Shown here: piece after piece, positions 9,019-51,124 of the stretch
How the letters are laid out: the number at the start of each line of letters is the position of its first letter
Numbering within the stretch: the first letter of the stretch is position 1
The notes under the pieces: model-generated
Database searches by the model: none
Seen by the model: the letters and a program-made list of their open reading frames with translations, nothing else
Told to the model about the DNA's origin: nothing
Source: Sulfuricurvum sp.
GTDB lineage: Bacteria > Campylobacterota > Campylobacteria > Campylobacterales > Sulfurimonadaceae
Reading direction: 5' to 3'
DNA: 64,000 nucleotides
Assembly: GCA_028710885.1 (NCBI GenBank)
Contig: JAQTTG010000003.1
Coordinates: 310,001 to 374,000 of the forward strand
Position numbers and translations under genes: made by a program

Positions 9019-9360
<342 letters not shown>

Positions 9361-9394
9361 GATAATTAAAAGTTCTACACTTTTAGATTCAAAT

Positions 9395-9424: not shown

Positions 9425-9511
9425 AATATTGATCTTGCCACTGAGTTTTATTCGTAAGAGCATAATGACTTCAGCAATAAGCTCAAGTATTTTCGTCCTC
9501 AATGTTTCATA

Positions 9512-9530
9512 TTGATTAATTTTTAATCAA
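9512..9530. promoter_or_regulatory. Palindromic operator upstream of the second amt gene (copy 2 of a shared site)
   Basis: TTGATTAA-TTT-TTAATCAA is a perfect 8+3+8 palindrome sharing the core TGATTAA-N3-TTAATCA with the site at 7552. Its centre lies 40 bp upstream of a TATAAT at 9561-9566, nearly the same geometry as at the first amt gene. That suits a transcription factor acting just upstream of the promoter. Confidence 0.62.
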
Positions 9531-9560
9531 CAAAGCTTCTTCAATTCCATAAATTGGTTA

Positions 9561-9566
9561 TATAAT
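9561..9566 (+). promoter_or_regulatory. -10 box of the second amt gene
   Basis: TATAAT 33 bases upstream of the GTG start, at the same distance from the palindrome as the corresponding -10 box of amtB. No clear -35 box is visible. Confidence 0.55.
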
Positions 9567-9598
9567 GCACACCTTTATCTCAACTAAAGGTATCTGTA

Positions 9599-20753: not shown

Positions 20754-20830
20754 GGCTGGGTAGCTCAGCTGGTTAGAGCGCTGGTCTCATAAGCCGGAGG
20801 TCGGGGGTTCGAGTCCCCCCCCCGCCACCA
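20754..20830 (+). tRNA. tRNA-Met (CAT), elongator; integration site of the mobile element
   Basis: 77-nt cloverleaf with encoded CCA: D-arm GCTC/GAGC, anticodon loop CTCATAA, T-arm GGGGG-TTCGAGT-CCCCC. G1-C72 pairing excludes an initiator. The acceptor stem has one mismatch (U4 opposite C69). The 3' 26 bases plus three more are repeated at 36441-36469, marking it as the attachment site. Confidence 0.9.
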
Positions 20831-20833
20831 TCT
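20805..20833. repeat. Left attachment site (attL), 3' end of tRNA-Met
   Basis: 29 bases covering the T-loop, a run of nine C, the acceptor 3' strand and CCATCT. They recur at 36441-36469 with one mismatch (G to T at the ninth base). This direct repeat bounds an element of about 15.6 kb whose first gene is an integrase, which is the classic tRNA-integration arrangement. Confidence 0.88.
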
Positions 20834-20892: not shown

Positions 20893-20938
20893 TTGTCATA
20901 CTTTTGTTATACCTCCTGTCATACCTTCTTGTGATACC
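20893..20938. repeat. Arm-type integrase repeats at the left end
   Basis: Two imperfect copies of a roughly 22-bp unit (20893-20913 and 20916-20938), each of the form TGTCATAC..TT..TTATACC, i.e. four TNATACC half-units. One copy of the same unit lies at 36276-36297 near the right end. Inside-end repeats of this kind are typical arm sites for tyrosine recombinases. Confidence 0.6.
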
Positions 20939-20950: not shown

Positions 20951-22468
20951 TTGCGGAATAAAACCTATTATTTTGTCCTCAGAGTGTCCAGAAAAACACT
21001 TTTAAAGTATTCGTTAAAGACTGGATATATTGAAACAGCACAAAGCCTTAGAAACATGATTTTGCTGGGCTTGAACAACGGCTTCATTACAAATAATCGT
21101 TTTGTAGATACAATTGTCCGAAAAATACAAAGCAGGGGAATTGTTGAACCTATGGGCTTATTTGACGAGAAGACTTTAAAAAGCGTAGATGCGACGCCAG
21201 ATATGGAAAAGTTCTTTGTAGAGAACTATGATGAGATAACAGAAGATTATGAGCCATTCTACGAAGAAGACCATCCAGAAGTTTTTCAGATAATGGAGCT
21301 GTATAGAAAGCTCGAAGACTATGAAAAAGCCAAACTGAAAGATATGATGGAATATTGGGATGTTCCTACAAAAATAGTCAAACTTGATTTGAATAACCCT
21401 GAGCATATGGTCATTGCAAATAGCACCGAGGATTACAACATTGCGTCAGACAGTAAAAACTATTATGCAACAAATATTTTAGACGAGACTGCTTTATTAT
21501 TAGAGCACGAAAAAAAGTTCAGGGAAAAGAGTATTGAACAGGCCTTTAACGAATGGGTTCAATGGAAAATGGATTCCAATGTGGTTTCAGATAAGACCTT
21601 GCGGTATTACCAATCAAGCTTTAACTATTTGAAGATATTTTTTAGACCTGATAGAAAGGTCTCAGACTTCACAATTAGGGATTTTAAAAACATCCTTTTA
21701 AACTTTCCGTTGCTCCCCGCAAATATTGTAAAGCACGAGCGATTTGTCAATATGGATTTGCGGTCAATTATAGAAATCACCAGAAATGAAAATCTTCCGA
21801 GATTAAGCAATAAGACCATCAATAACCATATGATAAATTATAAGAATATGTTTCAATTTTTTGTTGAGGAAAAGGAATATATCGCTGATAATCCCGTTAA
21901 AGTCAGATTGCTGAAAGAGGGAGAAAGCGAAAAAATACCGTTTGAGCATAAAGACTTGGCATTGTTATTTGAAAATATCAAAGATAAAGATGTCAAAGAC
22001 ATTATATTGATAGCTCTTCATAGCGGTATGCGCTTGGGTGAAATTGTCAATATGAAGAAAGAACACATATATGACAATCTATTTCATATTTACGATGGTA
22101 AAACAAAGAATGCTACGAGGGTTATTCACATACATTCAAAAATCAAAGATATAGTTGAGTGGTATATCAAGCATAACACAGGGGAATACCTTATTTATGA
22201 CGGTAATGTGGATGCCATTCAAAAACGGATAAATAGACGAATACAGCCTATTATCAAAGACAAAAATAAAACATTCCATAGCACTAGGAAAAACTTCATC
22301 AGAGAATTGATTACCGACCCTGAACGAAAGCTTGAATGGATACAAATGATTGTTGGGCATTCTGTGAGTGAAGGAACCAAATTGACCAAACAAACTTACG
22401 GTCGAGAAATGAGAGTCCCTCAAAAAATACTAGAAGAGTATGTTGAAAGTGTCCATTATATCTTTTGA
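20951..22468 (+). CDS. int: Tyrosine recombinase (integrase) of the element
   Basis: 505-residue site-specific recombinase that probably integrates and excises the element at the tRNA-Met gene. The C-terminal catalytic domain has the arginine in LHSGMRLGEIVNMK, a lysine in the beta-hairpin (IYDGKTKNATRVI), HxxR as FHSTRKNFI, a histidine in VGHSVSEG and the nucleophile tyrosine in KQTYGREM. A core-binding (SAM-like) domain lies at about 195-320, and the N-terminal 190 residues are a longer than usual arm-binding region. No ATG fits; the TTG at 20951 is the best start. It lies right after tRNA-Met and the arm repeats. Confidence 0.9.
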   Translation: MRNKTYYFVLRVSRKTLLKYSLKTGYIETAQSLRNMILLGLNNGFITNNRFVDTIVRKIQSRGIVEPMGLFDEKTLKSVDATPDMEKFFVENYDEITEDYEPFYEEDHPEVFQIMELYRKLEDYEKAKLKDMMEYWDVPTKIVKLDLNNPEHMVIANSTEDYNIASDSKNYYATNILDETALLLEHEKKFREKSIEQAFNEWVQWKMDSNVVSDKTLRYYQSSFNYLKIFFRPDRKVSDFTIRDFKNILLNFPLLPANIVKHERFVNMDLRSIIEITRNENLPRLSNKTINNHMINYKNMFQFFVEEKEYIADNPVKVRLLKEGESEKIPFEHKDLALLFENIKDKDVKDIILIALHSGMRLGEIVNMKKEHIYDNLFHIYDGKTKNATRVIHIHSKIKDIVEWYIKHNTGEYLIYDGNVDAIQKRINRRIQPIIKDKNKTFHSTRKNFIRELITDPERKLEWIQMIVGHSVSEGTKLTKQTYGREMRVPQKILEEYVESVHYIF

Positions 22469-22532: not shown

Positions 22533-23261
22533 ATGCAAGCCACATATAGTGAATATGATTTTAATAAAAGTATTGAACGCATAAATGAAGTTCTTGATAA
22601 TTCTGATTCTTCATATGAAGATGTAAAATCAATACCTTCAAGAGATACACTGACATTTGGTAACGGATTTTATGTTGGGTGTTCTGTATTATATGTTGAT
22701 ATACGTGGTTCTACAGAGCTGACATCTAAACACACAAGACCAGTTTTGGCAAAAATATATAAAACATATATTTCCGAGTTAGTGGCAGTTTTAAAAGGAC
22801 ATTCAAAAGTTAATGAAATATACATAGAAGGGGATGCAGTTTGGGGAGTATTCGATACACCAAATAAAGCAGATGTTGATGAATTATTTAGTATTGGTGC
22901 TCGTGTATCTTCATTGGTCGATATACTAAATATTAAATATAAAAAGAAAGGATATAGTGAATTAAAAGTGGGGATAGGAATTGCAGATGGTTCTGCACTT
23001 TTAATTAAAGCTGGCTATAAAGGTAGTGGTATAAATGAAGTAGTTTGGTTGGGTAAAGTAGTAGCAGAAGCAGCCTTATTATGTTCATATGGAAATAAGA
23101 CATATACTGATTCAGAAATGATGGTATCTAATATAATATATGATAATTTGAATGATGCTAATAAAAAGCTGTTATCGAAAAACTATAGCAGAGATTGCTA
23201 TCATGGTGAAGTAATTAATACTGTAATGGATGCATGGGTACAAAAAAATGGAAAAAATTGA
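22533..23261 (+). CDS. pycC: Pycsar pyrimidine cyclase (PycC-like class III nucleotidyl cyclase)
   Basis: 242-residue cytosolic cyclase domain. The two metal-binding aspartates of the class III fold are visible: D56 in SVLYVDIRGSTELT and D101 in YIEGDAVWGVFD. A stand-alone cyclase followed at once by a small membrane protein is the Pycsar anti-phage arrangement, in which phage infection triggers cCMP or cUMP synthesis and the second messenger opens a membrane-damaging effector. Which nucleotide it makes cannot be read here. AAGAGGAGC precedes the ATG at 22533. The stop overlaps the effector start. Base composition is clearly more AT-rich than the chromosomal genes. Confidence 0.8.
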   Translation: MQATYSEYDFNKSIERINEVLDNSDSSYEDVKSIPSRDTLTFGNGFYVGCSVLYVDIRGSTELTSKHTRPVLAKIYKTYISELVAVLKGHSKVNEIYIEGDAVWGVFDTPNKADVDELFSIGARVSSLVDILNIKYKKKGYSELKVGIGIADGSALLIKAGYKGSGINEVVWLGKVVAEAALLCSYGNKTYTDSEMMVSNIIYDNLNDANKKLLSKNYSRDCYHGEVINTVMDAWVQKNGKN

Positions 23262-23808
23262 TTTTATTTCTGTAGCTATTAATGACACACAATCAACCAT
23301 TAGGGCTATTGATGTAAAAATTGGAGCATTATTAACCGGTATGCTTCTTCCTATTGCATCACTAGGCAAGATATGGGGGCATTTAAATCATTTATCATTG
23401 GCTATAAATCAAGTAATTGCCATAATAGCAGGAATTTTATTTTTTTCATTATGGATTTTAGCTGTATTATTGCTTGTAAGAGCAATTTCTGCAATTGATA
23501 GTCCTACTAATCATATTATAGATTCTAACCAGTATAAAGGCTCTTTTTTTGGCGCATATCTTTATAGATTTGGTTGGAGAGATTTGATTTTAAATAGAAC
23601 AAAAAATAAAGCTATTAAAAAAGTGAGCCAATTTTTATGTGATTATCCAGACTCCGCAGATTCAATCGCTTTGGAATTAACGTTTGAGCATATGAAATTA
23701 ATTTATATTCGGGATATGAAGTTATTTCGATTAAATATTGCCTTAAAAATAGGTTTTGCATGGCTAAGTTTAGGAATAGGTATTTATATTTTTTCAAAAT
23801 TGCTGTAA
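23248..23808 (+). CDS. pycTM: Pycsar transmembrane effector (PycTM-like)
   Basis: 186-residue membrane protein: a short N-terminal helix with KIDFISVAINDTQSTIRAIDVKIGALLTG, hydrophobic segments at about 25-43 and 52-75, a soluble middle, and a final membrane segment at about 165-184. The N-terminal amphipathic part followed by two helices fits the PycTM effector family, thought to permeabilise the inner membrane when bound by the cyclic nucleotide. Start at the ATG at 23248, 14 bases inside pycC, giving coupled translation; an alternative ATG is at 23230. The assignment rests on size, topology and position. Confidence 0.72.
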   Translation: MEKIDFISVAINDTQSTIRAIDVKIGALLTGMLLPIASLGKIWGHLNHLSLAINQVIAIIAGILFFSLWILAVLLLVRAISAIDSPTNHIIDSNQYKGSFFGAYLYRFGWRDLILNRTKNKAIKKVSQFLCDYPDSADSIALELTFEHMKLIYIRDMKLFRLNIALKIGFAWLSLGIGIYIFSKLL

Positions 23809-23876: not shown

Positions 23877-23953
<77 letters not shown>

Positions 23954-23965
23954 GTATGTAAATGG

Positions 23966-24040
23966 TGGATGGGGAGGAGGGATTCGAACCCCCGAATGAC
24001 TGGACCAAAACCAGTTGCCTTACCGCTTGGCGACACCCCA
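23966..24040 (-). tRNA. tRNA-Gln (TTG)
   Basis: 75 nt, anticodon loop TTTTGGT (anticodon TTG), U1-A72 pair and D-arm CGCCAAGCGGTAAGGC typical of tRNA-Gln, and an encoded CCA. Oddities: a U6-U67 mismatch in the acceptor stem and U rather than G as discriminator base 73. It is upstream of and probably co-transcribed with the initiator tRNA. Confidence 0.9.
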
Positions 24041-24094: not shown

Positions 24095-25129
24095 TTAAAC
24101 TGCTTCAAATAAAGTTGAATTGTATTCTTTATCAAGTTTTTTTTGTTCTTTTTTTGGTAATGAAGACAAAGCTATTTTGATTGAATCAGCTATATGCTTT
24201 GCTAATTCAACAGGCACAGCATTTCCAATCATTTTATATCCGTCATTTACATTTGAATAATAAAAAATAAAGTCATCTGGAAATGTTTGAATCCTAGCAC
24301 ATTCACGAACGGATAATCTACGAACTCGATTATAGTCACCTTCAAATTCAAATTTATCCGTATCTACTTTTACCATTGGAGGTGAAAGTGGGTGTATTGG
24401 GGCGTGGCGTCCACCAGCTTGTATTGTAAAACTATGCTCGTCAATGGCTCTTCTTCGATTTCGAGACATAAATATAGTTGAAAAAGAACCAGTTAAATAT
24501 TCGTTATTAGGAAGTTTAGTATTTAAAGTTGCTCCTTTTTTGTGTGGAACAGCATCTTCTAACCCCTTTATAACTGAATTCAAAAATACCTTATCTTTAA
24601 CAGGTTTAGGAAATTTAAAATTAACATTGATATCTTTTCTAAATCCAATAATAAATACCCTTTCTCGTGTTTGAGGGACACCATAATCACAAGCATTTAG
24701 CACTTCATAATGGCAAGTGTATCCAGCTTCATCAAATAAATGAAGAATATGCTCAAAAGACTGTTTATGTGCGCTACTTACTATTCCTTTAACATTCTCC
24801 GCTAAAAAAAACTTAGGTTTCAAATGACTTAATACTCTGATGTATTCGTAAAATAAGGAACCCCGGTCATCTTCAATACCTCTCATAGCTCCTGCTAAAC
24901 TCCAGCTTTGACATGGTGGTCCACCAATTAAACCATCAATATTTTGAGGTAGCTCTTCGTTAGGTATGTTTCTTATGCTTCGTCTGTCTAATTTTGTTTC
25001 AGGATGGTTTTTTTCAAATGTTTCCCAGATGGTTTTATCATATTCATTTGCCCAAACAACATCAAACCCTGCTTTTTTAAAACCTAAGTCTAATCCGCCT
25101 GCACCTGAAAAAAGGGCTGCTACTCTCAC
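24095..25129 (-). CDS. DNA (cytosine-5) methyltransferase
   Basis: 344-residue type II modification enzyme. Motif I LFSGAGGLDLGFKKAGF, motif IV GGPPCQSWS with catalytic C73, motif VI ENVKG, motif VIII QTRERVFIIGF, and motif X IGNAVPVELA are all present, with a target-recognition region at about 195-275. The gene is AT-rich and stands divergently from a likely restriction partner at 25262. It therefore probably protects the element's host from that enzyme. Recognition sequence unknown. Confidence 0.93.
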   Translation of the reverse strand: MRVAALFSGAGGLDLGFKKAGFDVVWANEYDKTIWETFEKNHPETKLDRRSIRNIPNEELPQNIDGLIGGPPCQSWSLAGAMRGIEDDRGSLFYEYIRVLSHLKPKFFLAENVKGIVSSAHKQSFEHILHLFDEAGYTCHYEVLNACDYGVPQTRERVFIIGFRKDINVNFKFPKPVKDKVFLNSVIKGLEDAVPHKKGATLNTKLPNNEYLTGSFSTIFMSRNRRRAIDEHSFTIQAGGRHAPIHPLSPPMVKVDTDKFEFEGDYNRVRRLSVRECARIQTFPDDFIFYYSNVNDGYKMIGNAVPVELAKHIADSIKIALSSLPKKEQKKLDKEYNSTLFEAV

Positions 25130-25261
25130 TTTGTCATCCTCGTTTTAACATATAGTAATTATACATCAATCATATTAGCTGGGTCTTGTTTATATTGCAA
25201 CTTGCAAAAAAAAAATGAAAGCTATACAATCCTTTTTAATATATTTTAATAAGGGGTTGTA

Positions 25262-26152
25262 GTGTCTAAAAATTTCTCAAAAGTTGAGCAACATATTGTT
25301 TCGTTATTCCTTGAAGCTAAAAGTATGGATAAAGCAATAAATTATAATGGGAAACAATATAAGATTTTGATTGCTGGAAAACCAACTAGTTCAAAGGGGG
25401 AACCAAAAACAGATGTATATGCTCTGTTATCAAATGGTTCTGAAAATATTGAATTTAAGATATCAATTAAAAAAGATAATGCAGATTTTTTAGAAAATAA
25501 ATTAACGAAAATAGGAGCAGAAAGATTATTTGGAAATAACTGGAGTGAAATACTAACCGAGTCCATTGCTCCTTTAATTGGTGAATTTGAGAAACGAATT
25601 TTAATTCATCGAACGAAAAGGTATAAAGGTGCAATTACATTAGGATGGAGATTTGAGCTAGTAAATAAAAAGAATGGCAAGCTTTCCAATGAAATTAATG
25701 TAAGTGCAGAAGAAGTTTATAAAGGATTATTACTTGATGATGATAAAAAAAATGCGTATGTTGAAAATCAAAGAATTCCAAATTCTGGAGTTGCAGAACA
25801 TATATTATTCGTGAATGATATTTCTATTACTGATGTTGAAACTGTTTTGAACAAGGTCAAAACAATAGATGAATATACTGTTGGAAAAAAAATATATTTT
25901 GCATGTAAAGCATCGAATTATCAAAGTTTTAAAAATCCACCAGAGGTAGAAGGATTTCGTGATTTAAGTGTGTATATTGATTGGTCAGTAGAAAACTCTC
26001 AATTAAAACACAAGTTAAGATTTGATACACCACTGATGAAAAATGGTCGTGAAATATTTAAACAATTAGAAAATTGTTTAAATATACTTGGTGTTCGTGA
26101 TGTGACAGGACTTGATAAAACTAATGTGAGGGATTGTTCAATATGTAATTAA
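25262..26152 (+). CDS. Probable type II restriction endonuclease partner
   Basis: 296 residues with no recognised family from inspection. The stretch PKTDVYALL...IEFKISIKK at about 48-77 has the D-x(n)-E-x-K spacing of a PD-(D/E)xK nuclease core. A restriction role is suggested by its divergent pairing with the cytosine methyltransferase, the matching AT-rich composition and the length. It starts at a GTG at 25262 after AAGGGG. The last residues contain a CSIC pair. It could instead be another methylation-linked accessory gene; confidence in the function is moderate. Confidence 0.55.
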   Translation: MSKNFSKVEQHIVSLFLEAKSMDKAINYNGKQYKILIAGKPTSSKGEPKTDVYALLSNGSENIEFKISIKKDNADFLENKLTKIGAERLFGNNWSEILTESIAPLIGEFEKRILIHRTKRYKGAITLGWRFELVNKKNGKLSNEINVSAEEVYKGLLLDDDKKNAYVENQRIPNSGVAEHILFVNDISITDVETVLNKVKTIDEYTVGKKIYFACKASNYQSFKNPPEVEGFRDLSVYIDWSVENSQLKHKLRFDTPLMKNGREIFKQLENCLNILGVRDVTGLDKTNVRDCSICN

Positions 26153-26192: not shown

Positions 26193-27149
26193 TCAAAACG
26201 GCAAATCCTCACAATGGTATTTCCACAGCTCTTCCCTTACCACCGTTTCATTCTGCATAAGAATGTCCCACACGGTTAGGGCTTCTTTATCCGAATACCA
26301 TTCAACCCCGTTAGGGGTTTTATACCCCACCATAATTTTTTGCTTTTTTGGGTGCATATCAACCACCACGTCACGGTTCTTATAGACAAATATCGGTCTT
26401 CCCTCTGCTGTTTTATAAACCTCTTCCCGATACTTCACAAACTGTTCTTTTTTGGAGAATTGCTTTTGCTGACTTTTGGATTCGTCTTTGTAAATAAATC
26501 GAAATTCCAATGTGCTGACTTTCCTCCCTCGATAAATAGGCTCAACTGCCAAAGCAATCGAAGTCTTTTCGTTTATCTCTTTGACGGCTGGCGCAATTAC
26601 CCTCGCATTCAAATCACAGAACCGTTTATAGCCCGATTGTGGGTCAATCCCCATAAGAACTTTGAAATCGTCCAAATAGACCCGTTTCTTGCCTATTTTC
26701 AGGTAATCGGATATGAACTCATAAAGGGCGATGGAGTGTTTCGACTGCATCCCTTTGATGACTTTCAAATCCACCATCCCATACATATCGGGCTTATTGA
26801 TGACAGCAATCAACGCTTCTTCCATAGAGAACGACACAAACCCCTCTTCGGTAACATCAACATCAAGGATAACCCCTAAGTCTTTTTTCCAATCTTGTTT
26901 GGATTTTCCCAACACATTGAACGACACCTTGACTTCTTGCATCTGTAAAATGCTCTCTTTAATGTGGGTGCTGTTCTGCGACCCCGTATATTTTTTGATG
27001 TCCGATATATTGGCTTCAAATCTTCTTAGGTTTGGATTGTTTCTCAACTCTTTCTTGACAACGAACAGCAAGTAGTTGTAAATCGCCCGTTGGGAACGGG
27101 TCAGTTTATTGGTCATCTGTATCAAACCGCTCTCTTTTTTTAGCATCAT
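26193..27149 (-). CDS. rep: Plasmid replication initiator (Rep_3 family)
   Basis: 318-residue protein with two winged-helix-like halves: MTNKLTRSQRAIYNYLLFVVKKEL at about 12-35 and KHSIALYEFISDYLK...VYLDDFKVLMGI..GYKRFCDLNARVIAPAVKEINEKT at about 136-196. The latter is the hallmark of Rep_3/RepB initiators, which bind iterons in a plasmid origin. AAAGGTG precedes the ATG at 27149. Its presence with an integrase and mobilization genes indicates an integrated plasmid. The 27150-27495 stretch in front of it is the likely origin. Confidence 0.85.
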   Translation of the reverse strand: MMLKKESGLIQMTNKLTRSQRAIYNYLLFVVKKELRNNPNLRRFEANISDIKKYTGSQNSTHIKESILQMQEVKVSFNVLGKSKQDWKKDLGVILDVDVTEEGFVSFSMEEALIAVINKPDMYGMVDLKVIKGMQSKHSIALYEFISDYLKIGKKRVYLDDFKVLMGIDPQSGYKRFCDLNARVIAPAVKEINEKTSIALAVEPIYRGRKVSTLEFRFIYKDESKSQQKQFSKKEQFVKYREEVYKTAEGRPIFVYKNRDVVVDMHPKKQKIMVGYKTPNGVEWYSDKEALTVWDILMQNETVVREELWKYHCEDLPF

Positions 27150-27495
27150 TTTTTCACCTTTTAAATTGGATTACAAAACTATTTTAAAAACTTTGTTCAG
27201 GAACTCAAGAAATTTAACTGCTTTTTCGTAATCCGATTACAAAGTGCCGTTCGCAGGGGCAATTATTGGAGCGACAATCTGCCGTTGAATAGATATGAAG
27301 TGCCGTTAATGCCTTTTGAAAACATTGTTATATGGGTGATATTCAGCCCATTAAACCTGATTAAATAGATAGATGAAGATTATTGATTGATTAAAACACT
27401 CCCAGAGTGTTTTTCAAAACATTGTGATAGATTTTTTAGCGACCCTCTTTAAAATCTCAGGCGATTGATTTTTTTGCGGATTTTTAGCGGCACAT
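27150..27495. other. Non-coding region upstream of rep, candidate replication origin or oriT
   Basis: I see no gene here. It has short recurring words (GATTACAAA twice at about 27172 and 27233, TGCCGTT three times at about 27244-27307, AAAACATTGT twice at about 27320 and 27416) but no regular iteron array. A perfect hairpin is at 27393-27413. Origin function is inferred from position next to rep and the mobilization genes. Confidence 0.35.
27393..27414 (+). terminator. Terminator-type hairpin in the putative origin region
   Basis: AAAACACTC/GAGTGTTTT, a perfect 9-bp stem with loop CCA and T-rich end on both strands. No coding gene ends here, so it may terminate a small plasmid RNA (for example a counter-transcribed regulator of rep). 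Confidence 0.5.
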
Positions 27496-27606
27496 ATGGA
27501 GACAAGGATGGAAGGCTTCATAAGCAGGAAAGAGTATTGTCTTCGTCTGCGAGTCAATGTCAATAAGGTGGCTAAGGATTTTATGAATCAAATATCTGGC
27601 AAATAA
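27496..27606 (+). CDS. Possible 36-residue small protein
   Basis: Short frame METRMEGFISRKEYCLRLRV...KDFMNQISGK between the putative origin and the mobilization operon. The stretch ISRKEYCLRLRVNVNKVAKDF could be helical and basic. No good ribosome-binding site is visible, so it may be chance. Confidence 0.2.
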   Translation: METRMEGFISRKEYCLRLRVNVNKVAKDFMNQISGK

Positions 27607-27637
27607 AATAACTTTTTCGCCCAGAAATTTTATTTCT

Positions 27638-27656
27638 TACAATAGGTATAGATACC
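27638..27656 (+). promoter_or_regulatory. Promoter and operator of the mobilization genes
   Basis: TACAAT (27638-27643) followed by the inverted repeat GGTATAGATACC (27645-27656), 18 bases before the accessory-gene ATG. Nearly the same 12-mer, GGTATATATACC, overlaps the promoter region at 31388-31399, suggesting one repressor controls both plasmid-backbone operons. Confidence 0.5.
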
Positions 27657-27673
27657 AATTTAAAGGAATACAG

Positions 27674-28120
27674 ATGAGCAAAAAACGATTATTGACCAGA
27701 TTCAATTTACAACCCGAACTATTAGCACTGATTGAGGAACAGAGCCATAATCAGAACATCACCAAACACGATTACTTGAACCAGTTGCTATACGAAAAAC
27801 TGGTGAAGAAAGATAACCGCCTTAGTCAGCATATAGTTCGTGATGTAGAGAACTTACTATTGGTTCAATTGACCACCCAGCAAACATTTTCCTCTATCAA
27901 AGAAGCCATCGATGCCGCAATTCAAATCGACCCCATCAAGCGAAACATTTTAATGGAGCGTAGAGAGGTAAAACGGGGTCAATTTAAGAGCTTTTGGAAC
28001 CAAATACTAAAAGAAATCAACCCCGACCAGTTTTTAGAGATTAAAACAAAAGAAGCCGCTTTGGAGAAGTTGAAGACCATCTTTCGAATCGTGTTCGAGA
28101 ACAAGGAGGTGTTCGCATGA
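27674..28120 (+). CDS. Probable mobilization accessory protein (MobC-like)
   Basis: 148-residue helical, charged protein. The N-terminus KKRLLTRFNLQPELLALIEEQSHNQNITKHDYLNQLLYEKL looks like a ribbon-helix-helix DNA-binding fold. Genes of this size directly upstream of a relaxase and overlapping it by 4 bases usually encode a relaxosome accessory factor that binds the transfer origin. AAAGGA precedes the ATG. Family not certain. Confidence 0.55.
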   Translation: MSKKRLLTRFNLQPELLALIEEQSHNQNITKHDYLNQLLYEKLVKKDNRLSQHIVRDVENLLLVQLTTQQTFSSIKEAIDAAIQIDPIKRNILMERREVKRGQFKSFWNQILKEINPDQFLEIKTKEAALEKLKTIFRIVFENKEVFA

Positions 28121-29880
28121 GATACTCCGAGTCCAAGAACCTGAAACAGTTGAACACGGTATTCAAAGATACCCAAAAAATATACGAGGGGAAACAAAAG
28201 ACGGCTCTTATCACCTATGTCCAAAAACAGCATAATGTGTTCGAAAGCGATAAAAAACTGGGAGATGGTGGCGTTCATCACTACATCATCAGTCCTCTAT
28301 CACCTGAAAGCTATGAAAAACTAACTTCCGACCAAAAAAGAATAATGGAGGACGAGAGCATCCAGTGGAGTAAAAACACATTTGAAAAATTCGGCTTCAT
28401 CGGCGCATTGGAATATAACTCCGACAAAGGAGATAAACAATACACCAACGGCTTTCAAAATGTCAAAGAGGGATTTCACCTTCACCTTGCCGTCAGTGAG
28501 AAATATAAAATCAGGGGGCAAGCCGATTTATTGAGTTTGAGGGAGTCGCTGGCAAATCATCTATCCAACTCAATAGACGGTGATATGAGAACCATCTTGG
28601 GTCTGAAAAATAAAGAAGAAATGGAACAACACAGACGGCAAGCCATATCCCAAACCCAAAAGAAAAATGCCCTTGAAAACCTAAAAAATTCCCCTGAATT
28701 TATAGAAAATGATGCCTCGATTAAATCCCTGAACGGTGAATTGTCAAAGGTATTCACTGCTTTAGGAGTGAAACACATCTTGAAAAACGACCTTATTACT
28801 ATGAGCAAACACGAACGGCATAACATATTGAGCAAACGAACCGAGCTGAAAGAGGAAATCGGATTCATGCAAAAAGAGATTAAAAGCAGACGCAACGAGG
28901 TCAAATTAATTGATGGCTTCATCAAAGGGGAGAATGAGAAGATGTCCGATACCCAGAGGTTGTTTAATGACGAATACATCGCCTTGAAGCACTTTTATGA
29001 CAAGGAGATGATGTCGGTTTCCTATTACATCGAGGGACAATCCCAGTGGTTTCGAAAAATTAAATCAGACCAGTTGAAAAACAAACAAATATCCACCTCT
29101 GATTTTTTATCCCAAGTGGCACAGAATAAAAGTTATTGGAGATGGGTGAAGTCGGACGAGAAGAAACGCCACGAAGCCATTTTAAGACAACGAAGAGCCG
29201 ATTTTAAAAAGAAGCTATTTGCTATGGGAGATATTATCAGGGAGATTCAAAGAGACCGTTTGAAGGTGATAGCCCTGTCCAAATACGACTCCAAAAAACT
29301 GAAATCCAAACTTGCTAAATACGAGGATATCGGAACCCTATATAAGTCCCACTATGAGGTGTTCAATAAACGAATTGAGCAAATCCAGCAAGAGGTGGAA
29401 AGGCTGAAATCCAAAAAGGTCTCTTTGGTTCAAGAAAAAACCCAAAAACAGCACCAAAAACATCAAATGATAGAGAAAATCTTGAAGTTCGACTCAGCCG
29501 TTGGGGGCAAAGGATTTGAAGCACTGACGCAAGGGATGGAGAAAAAATACAATGTCAAAATCACCAAAGGCGGAGCGAATCCCGATTCTATTGACCTAAA
29601 AGAAAAAACCATCCATATACATAAACCCAAAAAAGAAGGAGCATTTGCCCACCTTCTTCGTGGCATTATGAAAATCACTGGAATGTCAGAAAGTTCCGTT
29701 ATCAGCAGTTTGAATATTAAAACGCTGTTTAAAAGGGTCAAAGAGAGTGTTTATAGCCAATATCCACACTTCCAACAATCATTGGAACAGACCCAATCGC
29801 TGGAGGACTTTATCGTGGTATTTGATAAGCTAAAAGAGGTGCATAAAAGACGGGAGGAGGATTACTCACCGTCTATGTAA
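28117..29880 (+). CDS. mob: Probable relaxase/mobilization protein
   Basis: 587 residues. The N-terminal third has VHHYIISPLSPESYEKLT at about 49-66 and GFHLHLAVSEKYK at about 118-130. The HxH pair and the ISP-type strand resemble the metal-binding core of HUH relaxases. A tyrosine near the N-terminus (Y3, or Y27 in LITYVQKQH) could be the nicking residue. The rest is a long charged coiled-coil region (about 180-470). Operon position after a MobC-like gene supports the role, nicking the element for conjugative mobilization. No coupling protein or mating-pore genes are in the element, so it would need a helper. Confidence 0.6.
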   Translation: MRYSESKNLKQLNTVFKDTQKIYEGKQKTALITYVQKQHNVFESDKKLGDGGVHHYIISPLSPESYEKLTSDQKRIMEDESIQWSKNTFEKFGFIGALEYNSDKGDKQYTNGFQNVKEGFHLHLAVSEKYKIRGQADLLSLRESLANHLSNSIDGDMRTILGLKNKEEMEQHRRQAISQTQKKNALENLKNSPEFIENDASIKSLNGELSKVFTALGVKHILKNDLITMSKHERHNILSKRTELKEEIGFMQKEIKSRRNEVKLIDGFIKGENEKMSDTQRLFNDEYIALKHFYDKEMMSVSYYIEGQSQWFRKIKSDQLKNKQISTSDFLSQVAQNKSYWRWVKSDEKKRHEAILRQRRADFKKKLFAMGDIIREIQRDRLKVIALSKYDSKKLKSKLAKYEDIGTLYKSHYEVFNKRIEQIQQEVERLKSKKVSLVQEKTQKQHQKHQMIEKILKFDSAVGGKGFEALTQGMEKKYNVKITKGGANPDSIDLKEKTIHIHKPKKEGAFAHLLRGIMKITGMSESSVISSLNIKTLFKRVKESVYSQYPHFQQSLEQTQSLEDFIVVFDKLKEVHKRREEDYSPSM

Positions 29881-31447: not shown

Positions 31448-32692
31448 ATGACTACATTGACTTCTTCTATTTCAACTTCAGTTGCTACGGCTCTTAACAA
31501 CCAAACGGTATCTATTTCGGCTGAACCGAAACAAAAACGTGAAATGACTCCTCATATCAGACGAGCGCATACTCGCACATTGAGAAACGGTGTCGTAAAA
31601 CAATTTCCAGCGTGTATTGTTCATGAAGAAAAATATTTCAAACTTTTCACGGAGAGTCCGAAATCTTTTTTTAACCGTATGACTGGAAGCAAAGTGGCAT
31701 TTTCTACTCTGTATCACTATACAGGTTCAAAAGCGAAGTTTTATAAAAAAGTTCAGCTTCTTTGGAATGAAACGGTTGATAAAAAGCGTGTGAAAAAAAT
31801 ATTGATTCCATTTTTTGGCGGCGGTTCGGATTTATTGAACATTTCGGTTAAAACAATGGGGATTGTTGATACTGCAATCGTAAACGATTTTAATCCAGTT
31901 ATCTCTGGCACAGTTAAAAACATCCGAGACAATCGTGAGAAACTGAAAGAGGAAATTGAAAAAATCACTGACATTGATTTGGAATCAGCCGATGAAGTAA
32001 GAATATTTCTGGAATCTTTGGTTGCGGTGGCACATGACCTTGAGTCGAATAAGGAATTTGACAATATCCGTTTATCGGCTATTTTTATTATTTTATTGAA
32101 TAGTTCAGACCGTGGTATTTATGAATGGAACGAAAAAGCTCAAATCAGTCAATTTTCCATTAATCCAACGAAGGCTCCAAAGAAGAAAAATCTAATGGGC
32201 AAAGTCGACTTTTTAGGTTATTTCATTGACGGATATAAAGAGTTCATTGTTGAAAATCTATCCTATGATGATTTGATTGAAAAATACGCTGGGGATGACG
32301 TATTGACTATTGCAGACCCTTTGTATGTGGAAGAGAACCACGATGAAAACGTGGAGGTTCTTATCAACACCGCCATCGATTATGGCTTTGATTTTGACCA
32401 TGACCGTTGCTTGGATGTATTTTCTACGAAATTGAAGGATTGTCAGCTTATTTACCATAATTATTTCAATACTAAACTAATACGGCAATTCGTTTCCAAA
32501 GGGTTTGATTTTATTCTACACCCAAAGAAAAATATCAGTCGTAATAGTGACGGCACATACAAAGATTGTGTGGAAATCATCGTATTTACGGATAACCGTA
32601 AAAAATCCAAAAAACCGTCTACAGCGGTTCAACCTCTGCCAAAGTCAAATAACACTGAATTCAGACCGTTTCTTGTTTTGAAATCGGCTTGA
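31448..32692 (+). CDS. Dam-like (D12 class) adenine methyltransferase homologue with altered catalytic motif
   Basis: 414 residues. FHYTGSK-type opening (LYHYTGSKAKFYKKV), the cofactor motif IPFFGGGSDLLN (residues 120-130) and VNDFNPVISG follow the plan of Dam-like N6-adenine methyltransferases. The catalytic DPPY motif, however, reads DPLY (290-293, in TIADPLYVEENH). Dam normally tolerates little change there, so the enzyme may be altered or inactive. A C-terminal FHPKKNISRNSDGTYKDCVEIIVFTDN segment fits the family's end. AAAGGAC lies upstream of the ATG. No restriction partner is adjacent. Confidence 0.65.
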   Translation: MTTLTSSISTSVATALNNQTVSISAEPKQKREMTPHIRRAHTRTLRNGVVKQFPACIVHEEKYFKLFTESPKSFFNRMTGSKVAFSTLYHYTGSKAKFYKKVQLLWNETVDKKRVKKILIPFFGGGSDLLNISVKTMGIVDTAIVNDFNPVISGTVKNIRDNREKLKEEIEKITDIDLESADEVRIFLESLVAVAHDLESNKEFDNIRLSAIFIILLNSSDRGIYEWNEKAQISQFSINPTKAPKKKNLMGKVDFLGYFIDGYKEFIVENLSYDDLIEKYAGDDVLTIADPLYVEENHDENVEVLINTAIDYGFDFDHDRCLDVFSTKLKDCQLIYHNYFNTKLIRQFVSKGFDFILHPKKNISRNSDGTYKDCVEIIVFTDNRKKSKKPSTAVQPLPKSNNTEFRPFLVLKSA

Positions 32693-33585: not shown

Positions 33586-36096
33586 ATGAGTTATGAAAAA
33601 TCACTAGAAACTTTAAAAAATTTAAATAAAAAGTTTTCAAATACTTCTATGAATGAAGCTGATACTAGATTTCAAATTATAGATAAAATTATTGAATATA
33701 CATTTTTTTGGCCATCAGCTAACATAAAAATGGAAACGAAAACAAATGAAGGATATACCGATTATCAATTAACTAATTCAAATGGTGAAAAAACTTTTCT
33801 AGTTATTGAAGCAAAAAAACAAAAAGTTGATTTCAATTTTAGTCAATATGGAGATATCACAAATCATCGTATAAAGGTAAAAATTCTTTTAAAGGATGAG
33901 AATACAAAAAATACGATTTTACAAGTAAAAAATTATTGTAATGATATAGGATGTAAATATGCTTGTATTACTAATGGCCATGAGTGGGCATTCTTTAGGA
34001 CTTATATAGATGGCAAAAGTTGGCAGGAAGGCAATGCTTATATCTTTAGAAATTTGCAAGATATCATCGACAACTTTGTAGAAGTTAATAAATATTTAAC
34101 GCATACCAAAATTGTGAATGAAAATTCTTTACAACTTCTTTTTGATGGTATTCAACATAGCTCTAATGAAAGATATGAACCGAAACTCAAAATCAATGGT
34201 TATGATGAACAAATTGCCAATAATCAATTAGATACGATGATTAGAGGTTATTTTGATAGATTCTTTGGAGAAATAAGAATTTCGGATGACGAATTGTTGG
34301 AAAAGTGTTACGTAGCAGAACGAGGTTATGAAATAAATTTTGACAAGGTAACACGTATATTAGAAGATGCACTTTCGCCTTATATGGAAAATACTGTCAA
34401 GCTAAAAAGTGTTGATACAAAAACATTTTCTCAAGATACATTTACACTTGAAATTCAAAAAATAATTATTGAAGGGAAAAAAGCAAAAGTCTTAGTTCTG
34501 TTTGGTGGTAAAGGGGCTGGGAAAACTACTTTCTTGGTGAATTTGTTTAGTAATAAACAAAATAATAATATTAGAGATCATAGTATTATTGGATACGTTA
34601 ATTTATTAAAAGTTGCAAATGATAAGGACGCCATAAAAAATCAAATACTAAAACAGTTATTGCAAGAAATTGATAAAGACAAATTATTAGAAGGAAGTAA
34701 TGATGATTTATCAAATTTATTTAGGGATAAATATGATGTTGCACTTAAACAATCTCTAGACGGACTTGATACTAAAACTGAATCTTTCATCTTAAAACGA
34801 AATGATTTACTTCAAAGCTACAAAAATGATTTGATGTATTGTCTTACAAGATTGTCACATTATTGGAGAGGTAAGCAAAAAGGTATTATTATAAACATAG
34901 ATAATACCGACCAATTTGACCAAGCATTGCAGGATTATTGTTTTAGCTTTGCAAGTGAGTTAGCTGAAAAATTACATTGTATATCTATTATTTCTTTAAG
35001 AGAAGAAAAATATGTTAGTTCAAATATTCAGGGATATTTGGACGCATATGAGCAGAATGGGTTTCATATTAGTTCTCCGAAGCCTCAACAAGTATTTTTA
35101 AAACGATTAGAGTTTATTTTAAACAAAATAAAGAATGAAAAGAAAATATTCAAACATCAAATTGATGATATCAATATACTGTTTCAAATTCTAAAAACAA
35201 ATCTTGAAAATGAGCAAAGTGAATTTAATAGATTTATGACAGCAGCTACTCATGGGAATATAAGACAAGGGCTTGAGCTCTTTAAATCATTCCTTTTTTC
35301 AAACTATACGAATATAAATGAAATGATTAAACAAGGGAAATGGGATATTACATTACATCAAATAATTAAGCCTATTATGATCCCGATTTATCGTTTTTAT
35401 AACGAAAAAATTTCAAATTCAATTCCTAATATATATAAATTGAGAAGTGAATTTAATAGTTCTCATTTTACAGCATATAGAATACTTAATAAACTTGCTA
35501 CAAGAAATGATGAGTATATTTCAGTATTTGAATTAAATTCTCATTTTTCTGATACTTTTAAAATGCTTAATGACTGTAAGCTAAATATAGAATTATTGTT
35601 AAGTAGGGGAATGGTTGAATCTGAAAATGGTTCTGATGTATACGATGACAATATACAAAAAATTAAAATTACATCATTTGGCTATTATATGCAAGAAGTC
35701 ATTTTTAAAGATTTGACATATTTGGAGCTTATTTCTGTTGATTTAGCTGTATTGGACCATCAACTATCCAATGAAATTATTGCATATTCGAATGAAGAAT
35801 ATGATTTATTAAAAAAAGGTCAAGATCGTAGTATTTTAGAAGAAGAAGCTAATCAACTTAGATATAAAAGACTTGAAATAAGACTAAGAAAAGTAGAGAA
35901 ATTAATCCAATATTTGAATAAGCAAGAACTAGCAGAAGTTGAACACTATTCATTAAACAAAGATAACTTGATGACTTCGAAAATCATTGATAATTTTAGA
36001 AATCAAAAAAAAGATGCTCTTGAAAGTGCTCAAAAAAATCTAAAAATCAATATAGCCATTTCAGAAACAAAACATGGCATCAAACGGTTGGATTAA
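33586..36096 (+). CDS. PD-(D/E)xK nuclease fused to a P-loop NTPase, candidate anti-phage gene
   Basis: 836-residue AT-rich gene. Residues 1-160 look like the nuclease domain at the N-terminus of type I restriction HsdR: NEADTRFQIIDKII (22-35), YTDYQL with D59, and the FLVIEAKK strand with E75 and K77, the D-x(n)-E-x-K core. Residues about 295-600 form an NTPase with Walker A GGKGAGKTT (307-315) and Walker B GIIINIDNTD with D439 and D442, of the STAND/KAP type. The last 240 residues are helical and charged, perhaps the sensor. No helicase motifs are present, so it is not HsdR. It is a single gene next to attR, where defence cargo often sits. Defence function is inference. Confidence 0.65.
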   Translation: MSYEKSLETLKNLNKKFSNTSMNEADTRFQIIDKIIEYTFFWPSANIKMETKTNEGYTDYQLTNSNGEKTFLVIEAKKQKVDFNFSQYGDITNHRIKVKILLKDENTKNTILQVKNYCNDIGCKYACITNGHEWAFFRTYIDGKSWQEGNAYIFRNLQDIIDNFVEVNKYLTHTKIVNENSLQLLFDGIQHSSNERYEPKLKINGYDEQIANNQLDTMIRGYFDRFFGEIRISDDELLEKCYVAERGYEINFDKVTRILEDALSPYMENTVKLKSVDTKTFSQDTFTLEIQKIIIEGKKAKVLVLFGGKGAGKTTFLVNLFSNKQNNNIRDHSIIGYVNLLKVANDKDAIKNQILKQLLQEIDKDKLLEGSNDDLSNLFRDKYDVALKQSLDGLDTKTESFILKRNDLLQSYKNDLMYCLTRLSHYWRGKQKGIIINIDNTDQFDQALQDYCFSFASELAEKLHCISIISLREEKYVSSNIQGYLDAYEQNGFHISSPKPQQVFLKRLEFILNKIKNEKKIFKHQIDDINILFQILKTNLENEQSEFNRFMTAATHGNIRQGLELFKSFLFSNYTNINEMIKQGKWDITLHQIIKPIMIPIYRFYNEKISNSIPNIYKLRSEFNSSHFTAYRILNKLATRNDEYISVFELNSHFSDTFKMLNDCKLNIELLLSRGMVESENGSDVYDDNIQKIKITSFGYYMQEVIFKDLTYLELISVDLAVLDHQLSNEIIAYSNEEYDLLKKGQDRSILEEEANQLRYKRLEIRLRKVEKLIQYLNKQELAEVEHYSLNKDNLMTSKIIDNFRNQKKDALESAQKNLKINIAISETKHGIKRLD

Positions 36097-36275: not shown

Positions 36276-36297
36276 TTGTCATACCTTTTGTTATACC
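36276..36297. repeat. Arm-type integrase repeat at the right end
   Basis: One copy of the 22-bp unit seen twice at 20893-20938 (TTGTCATACC...TTATACC), 144 bases from the right attachment repeat. Confidence 0.6.
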
Positions 36298-36430
36298 TTG
36301 GCAAGGCATTTACTCGATGCTATAATTATTAAATCTTGACTAAAAAGGGTTCCTTGTGATTACGAAAAGCCGTAAAATAGGTGGGTCCTTAAATAGTGTT
36401 CAATTTAAAAACTTGAACAGGAGTCGTATA

Positions 36431-36469
36431 GATGGTGGCTGGGTTCGATTCCCCCCCCCGCCACCATCT
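36431..36469. repeat. Right attachment site (attR) with flanking inverted repeat
   Basis: 36441-36469 repeats the tRNA-Met 3' end (28 of 29 bases identical to 20805-20833). GATGGTGGC at 36431-36439 is the exact inverse of GCCACCATC at 36460-36468. The bases GATGG(TGG)CTGGG just before it resemble the 5' end of the same tRNA gene with three extra bases, as if a shortened tRNA remnant remained. Confidence 0.82.
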
Positions 36470-38218: not shown

Positions 38219-40645
38219 ATGCGTATTGTAATTGTCGGAGGTGGAATTTCCGCTGTGTATATTGCTAACGCTCTGATGGGGCAGGCTCCGGAATCAGAAG
38301 TATTGATTATTTCTGAGGAAGAGCACACTCCCTATGATCGTATTCATCTATGTAAATTAGTTAATGATGATAAGTGTATTGATTCCATCATGTTGGACGT
38401 GCATCCAGCTGTGCATTTTGAGTTAAACCAAAAAATCCTCTCATTGGATCCCACTTCCAAACGTGTTTTTAGTGAACATGCTGCATTTCATTACGATAAG
38501 CTTATTCTCGCGACAGGTTCAGTTCCAAAGAGCCTTTTTGATATCACAGGGATAGAGAATGCCACGACGTTTCGTTCACAGAGAGATTGTAAAACGATTG
38601 CGCAGGGGATTGTGGGAAAAAATGTTGTAATCGTCGGGGCAGGACCGATCGCATTAGAGTTGCTGGATGCACTAATTCACTCTCCTGATCCAAAAAGCAT
38701 TACCTTGCTGGTGCGTAAGAGTCATCTCTATTCTGAGGTTATTAGTCGTGAAGCTCTGGTATTGATACGCGAAATTTTTGAAGCCGATCCCAGAATCCGC
38801 ATAGAGTTTAACAATCAGATCATTGATAAAGAGGTCTCGGGCAAAAGAATCACAAAAATTTTGACGAAGAATGGGGAGATCGATAACCCGTTTATCATTT
38901 TCGGCGTCGGTATTGATCCGAATATTGCCTTTGCCCGTGAGTCACTCGAGTGTGATAGGGGAATATTGGTGGATGCAACAATGCAGACGTCTGAACCCGA
39001 TATCTATTGTGTCGGCGAGGCGGCTCAGATGCGCGAGGGTGGATTTATCGCTGGACGGGTCAAAGAATGCATTCTCCAAGCAGATGTAGCTGTCGCACAT
39101 CTGCTTGGAGATGCAAACTCATTATTTCAAGAAGAGGTCTCGATTGACGGGCTTAAAGTAGGGTCGTTTTTATTTGCTGATGTATCGGCACCGGATTTTA
39201 ATCCGAAGGATCCGGAAAACGAAACGATTCTTATTTCTCATGGAGATCGGATCGATCAATACATCGTTAACCATGAGCATCTCAAACGTTTTATCGGAAT
39301 CAATACCAATATTGACCTAATGCGTCTGAAACGTCTGATGGAGTTGGATGAGTCGATTGATGTGGCCTATTTTTATTCCAATCGGCTGATGTCGGCAAAA
39401 GGGCGTCTGATTTGCAGCTGCGAAGGGGTACATGAGCAAGAGCTGGTCGACTTAGTCAAACTCAATGCCATCACCTCATTTGGCGAATTGAAACCATTTA
39501 GTAAAGCGGGGCGGACCTGCGGTCGGTGCAAGGAGGATGTCTGTGCACTGATCGAGGCGACCCCTATCGATCCTGAAGAGGCGGCACGATTAAAACAAGA
39601 GCGTGAAGCTGCAGTCAAAGAAGCAGAGCTCGCTGTTGTTCGCGAACGGATTGAAAAATACAATCGTATTCATCCGAAAAATCAGCTTAGTAGCGATAAT
39701 CTCGAAGAAGCAATTACATCGTTTGAGATGAGTCACGAGTTCAATCGTTGGGTGTCGATGATTACCGCATCGATGCATTTACATCCAAACTACGAAGAGG
39801 TGGTTAGAGAAGGGGTAACACAGCTCAACAAAATCCCGATTATTTGGCTCGAACTGGCCGATTGCAGCGGAAATTCGGAAGGTTTTATCAAAACCGCCCA
39901 TCCTAAAATCGACGATTTGATTTTGAAGTTTATTTCTCTCGATTATCATGAACTGCTGATGGCGGCATCGGGAGAACAATCTGAGCAGGTCTTGCGGGAT
40001 ATTGTCCAAAATGATGCGGGAAAATACGTTCTCCTTGTCGAGGGGGCAGTTCCTCTGGGGCTAGATGGTAAGTTTCTCCGCATCGGTCCGAAGGGTGAGA
40101 CGGGGTTGGAACTGCTTCGTCGCGTTGCTAAAAATGCGGCGGCGGTGATGGCGGTAGGATCGTGCGCATTTGATGGTGGTGTGGTTGCGGCAGCACCAAA
40201 CCCTACGGGTGCGGTCGGGGTAAGTGAAGCACTGGGACGAGAGGACATTATCAATCTCCCCGGATGCCCCGTTAATCCGATCAATATCGTGGGTACTCTG
40301 CTCCATTATATTATGTTCGAGGAGTTTCCGAAACTGGATGCCAAGAACCGTCCCGAATGGGCATACGGATTTCGAGTGCATGACAACTGCGAGCGGCGTG
40401 GCCATTACGATTTGGATGAGTTTGTCCTCGAATGGGGTGATGAAGGGGCAAAAAAAGGGTGGTGCCTGTTTCAGATGGGATGCAAAGGACCTTATGCCGA
40501 TCTCAACTGTTCCCTGGTCAAGTTTAATGAGGGGACAAGCTGGCCGGTACAGGTAGGGCATGGATGTTTTGCTTGCGCTCAGGGAAAAATCGCATTTGAC
40601 CAATACGCTAATAACCGTAAATTAGAGGAAAAGCCGCATGAATAA
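38219..40645 (+). CDS. Fusion: NirB-like flavoprotein + [2Fe-2S] domain + [NiFe] hydrogenase small subunit
   Basis: 808 residues in one uninterrupted frame. 1-390: FAD/NAD(P)H disulfide-reductase fold (GGGISA at 7-12, LILATGSVPK, second dinucleotide site VIVGAGPIALE near 140). 399-437: BFD-type [2Fe-2S] site, cysteines C399, C401, C434 and C437. 450-540: charged linker. 540-808: hydrogenase small subunit with WLELADCSGNSE (C549), GSCAFDGG, HDNCERRGHYD and the distal cluster cysteines. The hydrogenase part closely matches HydA at 51125, but it lacks a working Tat signal and the C-terminal anchor, so the enzyme should be cytoplasmic. It overlaps its large subunit by 8 bases. Probable role: exchange of electrons between H2 and NAD(P)H or a [2Fe-2S]/flavin carrier. 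Confidence 0.88.
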   Translation: MRIVIVGGGISAVYIANALMGQAPESEVLIISEEEHTPYDRIHLCKLVNDDKCIDSIMLDVHPAVHFELNQKILSLDPTSKRVFSEHAAFHYDKLILATGSVPKSLFDITGIENATTFRSQRDCKTIAQGIVGKNVVIVGAGPIALELLDALIHSPDPKSITLLVRKSHLYSEVISREALVLIREIFEADPRIRIEFNNQIIDKEVSGKRITKILTKNGEIDNPFIIFGVGIDPNIAFARESLECDRGILVDATMQTSEPDIYCVGEAAQMREGGFIAGRVKECILQADVAVAHLLGDANSLFQEEVSIDGLKVGSFLFADVSAPDFNPKDPENETILISHGDRIDQYIVNHEHLKRFIGINTNIDLMRLKRLMELDESIDVAYFYSNRLMSAKGRLICSCEGVHEQELVDLVKLNAITSFGELKPFSKAGRTCGRCKEDVCALIEATPIDPEEAARLKQEREAAVKEAELAVVRERIEKYNRIHPKNQLSSDNLEEAITSFEMSHEFNRWVSMITASMHLHPNYEEVVREGVTQLNKIPIIWLELADCSGNSEGFIKTAHPKIDDLILKFISLDYHELLMAASGEQSEQVLRDIVQNDAGKYVLLVEGAVPLGLDGKFLRIGPKGETGLELLRRVAKNAAAVMAVGSCAFDGGVVAAAPNPTGAVGVSEALGREDIINLPGCPVNPINIVGTLLHYIMFEEFPKLDAKNRPEWAYGFRVHDNCERRGHYDLDEFVLEWGDEGAKKGWCLFQMGCKGPYADLNCSLVKFNEGTSWPVQVGHGCFACAQGKIAFDQYANNRKLEEKPHE

Positions 40646-45134: not shown

Positions 45135-45932
45135 TTATTTCACAGCTTCAGCTTTTATCCACATCTTGATCTCTTTTTTGCCTTGGTAGCTGATGTAATA
45201 CCACTCTTGTCCTGCATCATCAGTTTTTGTATCGAGTAACGTTACTTTATCACCTGCAATTAGGTACATTTTAGATTGGGATGATTCGGAAGGTTCTTTG
45301 TAGAGGGGGGATTTATTGATTAATGGTTTTAGATTATCACTTTCTTCAAAATTACTTATACACTGTAGTTTTTCATAATTTCCTTCATTAAATGCTTTTC
45401 TAGATATTTTACAAGATAATGAAGTCACAGACTTCCCATCCATACTATGAACTGGTACATTATCAAAACTCAAATCATTTTTGATTTTTTCACTACCAAA
45501 ATTATATTTATCTGTCGTAAAAAGAAAATCAGGTTTAAAATCTCTTAGGTTCAGATTATTAAAATCACCAATATACAAAGTTGGTAACAACTTATTTGCT
45601 TTTATTGAAACAATATGATTAAAACAATAAACTCGTTGGATATAGAAATTATTCTGTTTTTTAAATACAGGTATCACACACTCTTCTTGTGATGAGTTCA
45701 AAAGTGTTGCTTTATTGATACTAAACTCAGAATTGTCAATGGACATATTTGAAAAATAATAAAGTGAAGTAACATTATCATTTTTTTTAATGAAATTATT
45801 GATCAACTGCTTGGTCTGAGTATTTATAATTCCTCTCTCTGTGATATCTAATTCTATTGTCTTGGCAATAGCCGTGTTCACCATGAGTAAAATACTCATA
45901 TAGCCTATTAATTTTTTGCTTTTGTTAAACAT
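45135..45932 (-). CDS. Exported protein with SH3-like C-terminus, probable immunity protein
   Basis: 265 residues. Signal peptide at 1-23 (KKLIGYMSILLMVNTAIA), then an unrecognised middle with one likely disulfide region, and a C-terminal bacterial SH3 module (IAGDKVTLLDTKTDDAGQEWYYISYQGKKEIKMWIKAEAV). It overlaps the end of the Rhs gene by 25 bases. The Rhs tip is a predicted peptidoglycan hydrolase, so an exported neighbour is just what an immunity protein would have to be. Function is inferred from position and export. Confidence 0.6.
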   Translation of the reverse strand: MFNKSKKLIGYMSILLMVNTAIAKTIELDITERGIINTQTKQLINNFIKKNDNVTSLYYFSNMSIDNSEFSINKATLLNSSQEECVIPVFKKQNNFYIQRVYCFNHIVSIKANKLLPTLYIGDFNNLNLRDFKPDFLFTTDKYNFGSEKIKNDLSFDNVPVHSMDGKSVTSLSCKISRKAFNEGNYEKLQCISNFEESDNLKPLINKSPLYKEPSESSQSKMYLIAGDKVTLLDTKTDDAGQEWYYISYQGKKEIKMWIKAEAVK

Positions 45933-50863: not shown

Positions 50864-51124
50864 AATGAGCAACCTGTATGTTATTTAAAAAAACAATAAA
50901 TTGTTATAAAAAATTTACGAAACAATATCATAATAAACATTAAATATAATTTATTTTGTTTAAAATAATTTTTAAATGTATTGCTAAATAATTTATCTTT
51001 AGGTCCTATAAATACATAAGAAATAGAAAAATTCAAATAAATTTTATCTATTAAATATTCGTTTAAGTTATCCAGACGTACAATACTGAATGATTGTTCA
51101 TTTAAAGATATTGAGGAGAAGATC
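50864..51124. other. AT-rich intergenic region between rhs and hydA
   Basis: 261 bases without a supported gene, very AT-rich and carrying the divergent control regions of rhs and hydA. A possible hydA -10 box TACAAT lies at 51079-51084; no operator repeat is obvious. Confidence 0.5.

Follow-up and report, generated by a model that had tools for sequence, protein, structure and literature searches.

The protein analysed here, P0001, shares its N-terminal nuclease with HsdR of type I restriction: the fold, the D–ExK triad and the QxxxY pair, which is typical of HsdR/RecB-type nucleases, are common to both. Unlike HsdR, P0001 is without an SF2 helicase motor and as a rule without HsdM or HsdS partners; because it has no motor, we rejected membership of HsdR itself. 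STAND proteins of the Avs/bNACHT type are, like P0001, composed of an N-terminal effector, a central NTPase with a WHD and a C-terminal helical sensor-like region, whereas P0001, at 836 aa, has only ~125 residues past its probable winged helix (wHTH) and ends, in its model, in long helices with no TPR array or other repeat. PARIS, OLD, Gabija and PrrC resemble P0001 as ATPase-controlled nucleases on prophages, and such genes adjoin P0001 homologues; they are built on ABC-type ATPases and on nuclease folds other than that of P0001. Last, the ORC/Cdc6-clade ATPases of conflict systems (BREX BrxC, SspC and TnsC; PMC12839542, PMC10853773) have the NTPase, helical lid and wHTH in common with P0001, which differs from them in carrying a nuclease on the same chain and in lying outside any multi-gene operon; genes of the BREX operon (PglX, PglZ, BrxA/B/L) were found neither in its element nor in the annotated neighbourhoods of its homologues.

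The P0001 gene and its integrated element

The P0001 gene lies in a window of 64,000 nucleotides (the whole stretch of DNA that was analysed) from Sulfuricurvum sp. In agreement with an earlier note on this DNA, ORF call and translation gave a single intact, uninterrupted plus-strand ORF of 836 aa with an ATG start. It comes last among the genes of a 15.6-kb element, which is integrated at tRNA-Met and has the following main features.

20805..20833, plus strand: attL, a direct repeat at the 3′ end of tRNA-Met CAT (tRNA at 20754-20830)
20951..22468, plus strand: tyrosine integrase (Pfam Phage_integrase, 1.3e-9), starting 118 bp inside the left end
22533..23808, plus strand: Pycsar, PycC cyclase (PADLOC, 2e-95) and overlapping PycTM-like membrane effector (7e-11)
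24095..26152, divergent: type II restriction–modification (RM) system, C5 cytosine methylase on the minus strand (DNA_methylase, 5.5e-98) and restriction enzyme on the plus strand (REase_II, 3e-42)
31448..32692, plus strand: Dam-family-like adenine methylase, apparently partnerless, 0.9 kb upstream of the P0001 gene
33586..36096, plus strand: P0001, single-chain nuclease–NTPase gene (ORF, translation; phrog_14719 match)
36441..36469, plus strand: attR, repeat of attL, 345 bp downstream of the P0001 gene

The two att sites are 29-nt direct repeats identical at 28 of 29 positions, and in a related genome (G035) the tRNA (window 20836) and the sequence at window 36550 lie within ~80 bp of each other, an empty site; these data confirmed the placement of the gene beside attR, at the end of the element. 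Its AT-rich composition was likewise confirmed, with 27.0% GC in the gene versus 36% in the remainder of the element and 41% outside it. A Rep3-type replication initiator was recognized by Pfam within 26193-29880, and 28117-29880 is probably a relaxase gene (no family matched), so that the element resembles an integrated mobilisable plasmid. The proposal that neither a methylation nor a specificity subunit lay nearby was correct for hsdM and hsdS, which are absent from the element and, with one exception (viral contig L033, below), as a rule from beside the homologues, but incorrect for methylation in general, given the C5 methylase with its restriction enzyme and the Dam-like methylase listed above. 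Methylases are not, as a rule, brought along by the homologues of P0001.

The element also encodes its own tRNA-Met (CAT) and tRNA-Gln (TTG) at 23877-24040 on the minus strand. Near its ends, the 14-nt motif CTTTTGTTATACCT is present at both 20901-20914 and 36285-36298, together with further TGTxATACC-like copies; these are possible arm-type integrase sites. Elsewhere in the window, 38219-40645 (plus strand) encodes an unusual fusion of a NirB-like FAD oxidoreductase, a BFD [2Fe-2S] domain and a [NiFe] hydrogenase small subunit. By eye, the large protein encoded at 45908-50872 (minus strand) is PAAR/RHS-repeat-like and resembles GH19 chitinase/lysozyme in a stretch of its C terminus, and the small secreted protein whose gene follows (45135-45932, minus strand) could be its immunity partner.

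Domain architecture of P0001

The domains of P0001 were delimited from conservation, AF2 models and fold matches.

33586..34080, plus strand: HsdR-type PD-(D/E)xK nuclease domain, residues 1-165, with D59, E75, K77 and Q113/Y117 (QxxxY); conservation, AF2 and fold matches
34222..35085, plus strand: P-loop NTPase core, residues ~213-500, with Walker A GGKGAGKT (K313) and Walker B IDNTDQ (D439, D442); full AF2 model, Pfam and fold matches
35083..35385, plus strand: lid of helices, residues ~500-600, in which R507 is invariant and G557 and R560 belong to a GDxR-like motif; conservation and secondary structure of the model
35467..35688, plus strand: probable winged helix (wHTH), residues ~628-701; helix–helix–helix–strand–strand order in the model
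35713..36093, plus strand: helical domain at the C terminus, residues 710-836, modelled as three long helices

D59, E75, K77, Q113 and Y117 are identical in all 40 homologues that cover the nuclease domain. Residues 1-200 folded separately gave an AF2 model with a mean pLDDT of 92.7 (85.2 for the full-length protein), which matched the solved structures of a Vibrio HsdR fragment (3h1t; Z 12.1, 25% identity over 125 residues), BpuSI (Z 10.9), DrdV (Z 9.6), EcoR124I HsdR (Z 7.3) and Shedu (Z 7.0). The HsdR-like PD-(D/E)xK domain predicted earlier is thus backed by both conservation and the modelled fold. Pfam recognized HSDR_N_2 in 19 and HSDR_N in 12 of the 41 family members, and the PADLOC match of P0001 was to the generic PD_DExK model only (E 8e-5). 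Searches of PDB sequences with P0001 and with a 41-row profile yielded generic P-loop matches and a short piece of HsdR, and nothing else. No helicase family was matched in Pfam, NCBIfam and PADLOC scans of P0001, and SF2 helicase/translocase domains were absent, as the earlier note had it.

K313, D439 and D442 are identical in 41/41 members; together with D59, E75 and K77, every residue singled out beforehand is present and identical in each homologue that covers the position (41, close and distant), and these residues are under selection. Pfam agreed weakly on the family of the NTPase (AAA_22 in 33/41 members, AAA_16 in 26/41). The model of NTPase, lid and wHTH matched the solved structures of Orc1/Cdc6 (Z 14.5), BREX BrxC (14.2), TnsC (13.1) and CED-4/plant NLRs (12.8), and its alignments to CED-4, NLR and Orc1 (2v1u) extend to residues 707-709. 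By this modelled fold, at Z 12–14.5, the three domains belong to the ORC/Cdc6–STAND superclade. Of the previous 'STAND/KAP-like' assignment, the P-loop NTPase therefore stands on its residues and fold, but the KAP part does not: transmembrane helices were not predicted in P0001 (top 19-residue hydropathy 1.47), and Pfam KAP_NTPase matched 6/41 relatives, P0001 not among them. The invariant R560 may serve as sensor 2: the conserved G557-x-x-R560 resembles the corresponding motif of ORC-type AAA+ ATPases. S470-x-R472, where strand 4 ends, resembles the STAND sensor-1 arginine and appears nearer to STAND than to ORC. No Avs profile model occurred among the PADLOC matches of the 41 members, and no Avs-like solved structure among the fold matches listed, which excludes nothing.

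The C terminus, described beforehand as helical and unknown, is helical in the model, but part of it has a recognisable fold, the probable wHTH at 628-701. Conservation along P0001 is lowest in the bins 721-760 and 801-836, in the C-terminal domain. Because the nuclease and NTPase residues are kept in relatives of 17–27% identity, both activities are, to judge from the alignment, likely used. Together, sequence, structure and homologue context support a layout of HsdR-like nuclease, P-loop NTPase and helical C terminus in a single gene carried as mobile-element cargo.

Distribution and genomic context of the family

All 41 members matched PHROG 14719 (P0001 over residues 4-790, E 2e-78), a full-length homologous family that carries no assigned function. 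PADLOC, NCBIfam and Pfam hold no named model for the family, and searches of open-access papers by accession or phrase gave no known-system name. In the libraries and papers searched the building blocks are known, and their arrangement in P0001 is, as far as we have seen, uncharacterised. A 2026 DefensePredictor study reports 13 PD-(D/E)xK systems validated in E. coli (PMC13092281), among which a relative may already be included. The description 'undescribed' applies within the libraries and open-access literature searched, with those 13 systems as its possible exception.

Close relatives (~38% identity) were found at 22 genome loci in Alpha-, Beta- and Gammaproteobacteria, Thermodesulfobacteriota and Planctomycetota, and also on plasmids. 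In the tree, 23 close members form the sister group of P0001 (100/100); the deep branching order is unsafe because of long branches elsewhere. Distant clades (17–27% identity) were found in enterics and other bacteria, on their prophages and plasmids, and some of their members have an extra cold-shock domain, in two such variants. Occurrence is patchy: within the phylum of P0001 a homologue occurs in at least 1 of 298 genomes, that of P0001 itself, a prevalence that is a lower bound with three candidates scored per genome. Of 5426 complete genomes, 7 contain one particular E. coli lineage of the family. The phage record collection held no relative of P0001, and neither P0001 alone nor the close-clade profile found one in viral contigs, in which the wide profile found 15. 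Two copies are broken (L031 and L046); in nearly the whole family the frame and the motif residues are intact.

Among the 120 neighbours of the 22 close loci (three ORFs on each side) we counted six integrases and five resolvases, 11 in all, a raw count with no control set. OLD-like genes lie near three close homologues (L017, L021 and L027), a PDC-S06/PrrC-like gene near L014, a Ppl-like gene near L012 and a UvrD/GajB-like gene near L030. At 8 of the 22 close loci (L010, L013, L015, L020, L022, L023, L025 and L026) no recombinase or defence gene was recognized within three ORFs. No partner gene of a toxin–antitoxin or two-gene system was visible among the neighbours, none of which was seen to recur, and the partner-gene reading was dropped on that ground.

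One distant member (L039) is flanked by a P2-type portal (phrog_68) and a replication endonuclease (phrog_91), a position described as a hotspot of anti-phage genes (PMC9519451; P2 hotspots also in PMC9122126), and another, in E. coli MS 119-7, within a lambdoid early region. Many members are on plasmids, some of them adjoining replication genes. In Aeromonas, the lone L020 homologue is replaced in a congener, at the same chromosomal site, by a lone PD-(D/E)xK-like PDC-M36A gene (L072:3487-4917); PDC-M36A is a PADLOC candidate, and we read the site as a single-gene defence spot. The GC content of the family gene is below that of its flanks in 41/41 loci, by 12.7 points on average among members that are not independent. 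The association with mobile or defence loci on which the earlier proposal depended was thus found, in the form of integrases and resolvases, hotspots and defence genes, and the homologues are not consistently outside such loci.

Defence reading and its alternatives

Since its relatives from across the bacteria occur as lone genes on prophages and plasmids and at defence sites, P0001 is probably an anti-phage gene. The designation 'defence system' in the earlier note is supported by this context, from which we infer the role itself; we regard that role as highly probable. The reading that we prefer, and consider rather likely as a whole, is that P0001 is a stand-alone anti-phage (anti-invader) enzyme in which an HsdR-type DNase is restrained by an ORC/STAND-type ATPase; licensing of the nuclease by the ATPase is, taken by itself, a likely part of it. 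The retained motif residues, the modelled folds, the company of Pycsar and a type II RM system, the neighbours and sites of the homologues, the low GC and the patchy occurrence speak for it. The eight close loci with neither recombinase nor defence gene recognized and the generic nature of the PADLOC match count against the preferred reading, as does the consideration that an N-terminal REase–ATPase fusion could serve competition between mobile elements or plasmid stability. We know of no phage phenotype for any member of the family.

By analogy, an architecture of effector, switch, winged helix and variable helical end makes assembly upon a cue the likeliest course of action. The nucleotide-bound monomer or small oligomer would be inactive. 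The winged helix, together with the variable helices of the C-terminal domain, would sense an invasion cue, which may be a DNA structure, a replication state or a phage protein, and ATP-dependent oligomerisation of the NTPase would follow; in the oligomer the nuclease domains at the N termini would meet and cut DNA, either that of the invader or all cellular DNA. Both the oligomerisation step and the kind of cue are tentative elements of this course. Neither a methylase nor a specificity subunit would be needed, and the gene would travel alone as moron cargo.

A direct form of restriction, blind to modification or dependent on it (type IV-like), is a less probable account, in which the ATPase would load or translocate on foreign DNA in the manner of BrxC, TnsC or ORC, the nuclease would cut and the host would survive. 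The nearest ATPase folds are indeed those of DNA-loading ORC, BrxC and TnsC, the wHTH and the two cold-shock-domain variants fit, and 7 of 11 putative-DNase systems gave direct immunity (PMC9519451). However, scans of P0001 and of the 41 members found no SRA, ASCH, PUA or other reader of modified bases, and helicase or translocase motifs are absent.

P0001 might instead guard a restriction system and, like PrrC, sense an inhibited resident RM system or an anti-restriction protein and kill the cell, its HsdR-like nuclease domain responding to anti-restriction proteins that bind HsdR; PrrC and PARIS are precedents (PMC9122126). This improbable role is a live rival because of viral contig L033, where a distant member directly follows, with overlapping ends, hsdM, hsdS, hsdR and a small metallohydrolase-like gene (737-10400, beside terminase), as the last gene of that operon; we read it as an accessory gene of a prophage type I RM system. 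Two further members lie near RM genes (L050 near hsdR and an N-6 methylase, L007 beside a methylase and a REase), and the element of P0001 itself carries a type II RM system. Yet RM genes are absent near most members, and the RM system of the element, being type II and 7 kb away, is unable to share a transcript with the P0001 gene.

We also think it improbable that the gene has no part in defence and serves to maintain a selfish element or to exclude plasmids, or is a chance passenger encoding a relic nuclease: the many plasmid copies, some near replication genes, and the two broken copies would fit, but the gene is also found in several kinds of prophage and as a lone chromosomal gene, and nearly all members retain the reading frame and the motif residues.

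Returning to the preferred reading of an ATPase-restrained nuclease, its extension to the family is conceivable, if somewhat doubtful: P0001 and its relatives may form an unnamed, broad single-protein immune family in which an HsdR-type nuclease is joined to an ATPase switch of ORC/STAND type that has a winged helix, in place of the helicase motor, a 'restriction' that would need no methylation or specificity subunit and would be triggered by an invasion cue and not by unmethylated sites. Because a single gene of ~2.5 kb encodes clear catalytic residues, licensing of a restriction nuclease by an ATPase without methylation marks is directly testable. On elements such as this one, defences are stacked, with Pycsar, a type II RM system and the P0001 gene within 15.6 kb. 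If the preferred reading is true, a compact one-gene defence family would extend across several phyla, on plasmids, in prophages and at single-gene sites in chromosomes, and would join the HsdR nuclease of type I restriction with the ATPase switch of ORC/NLR type that is used in DNA loading and in immunity.
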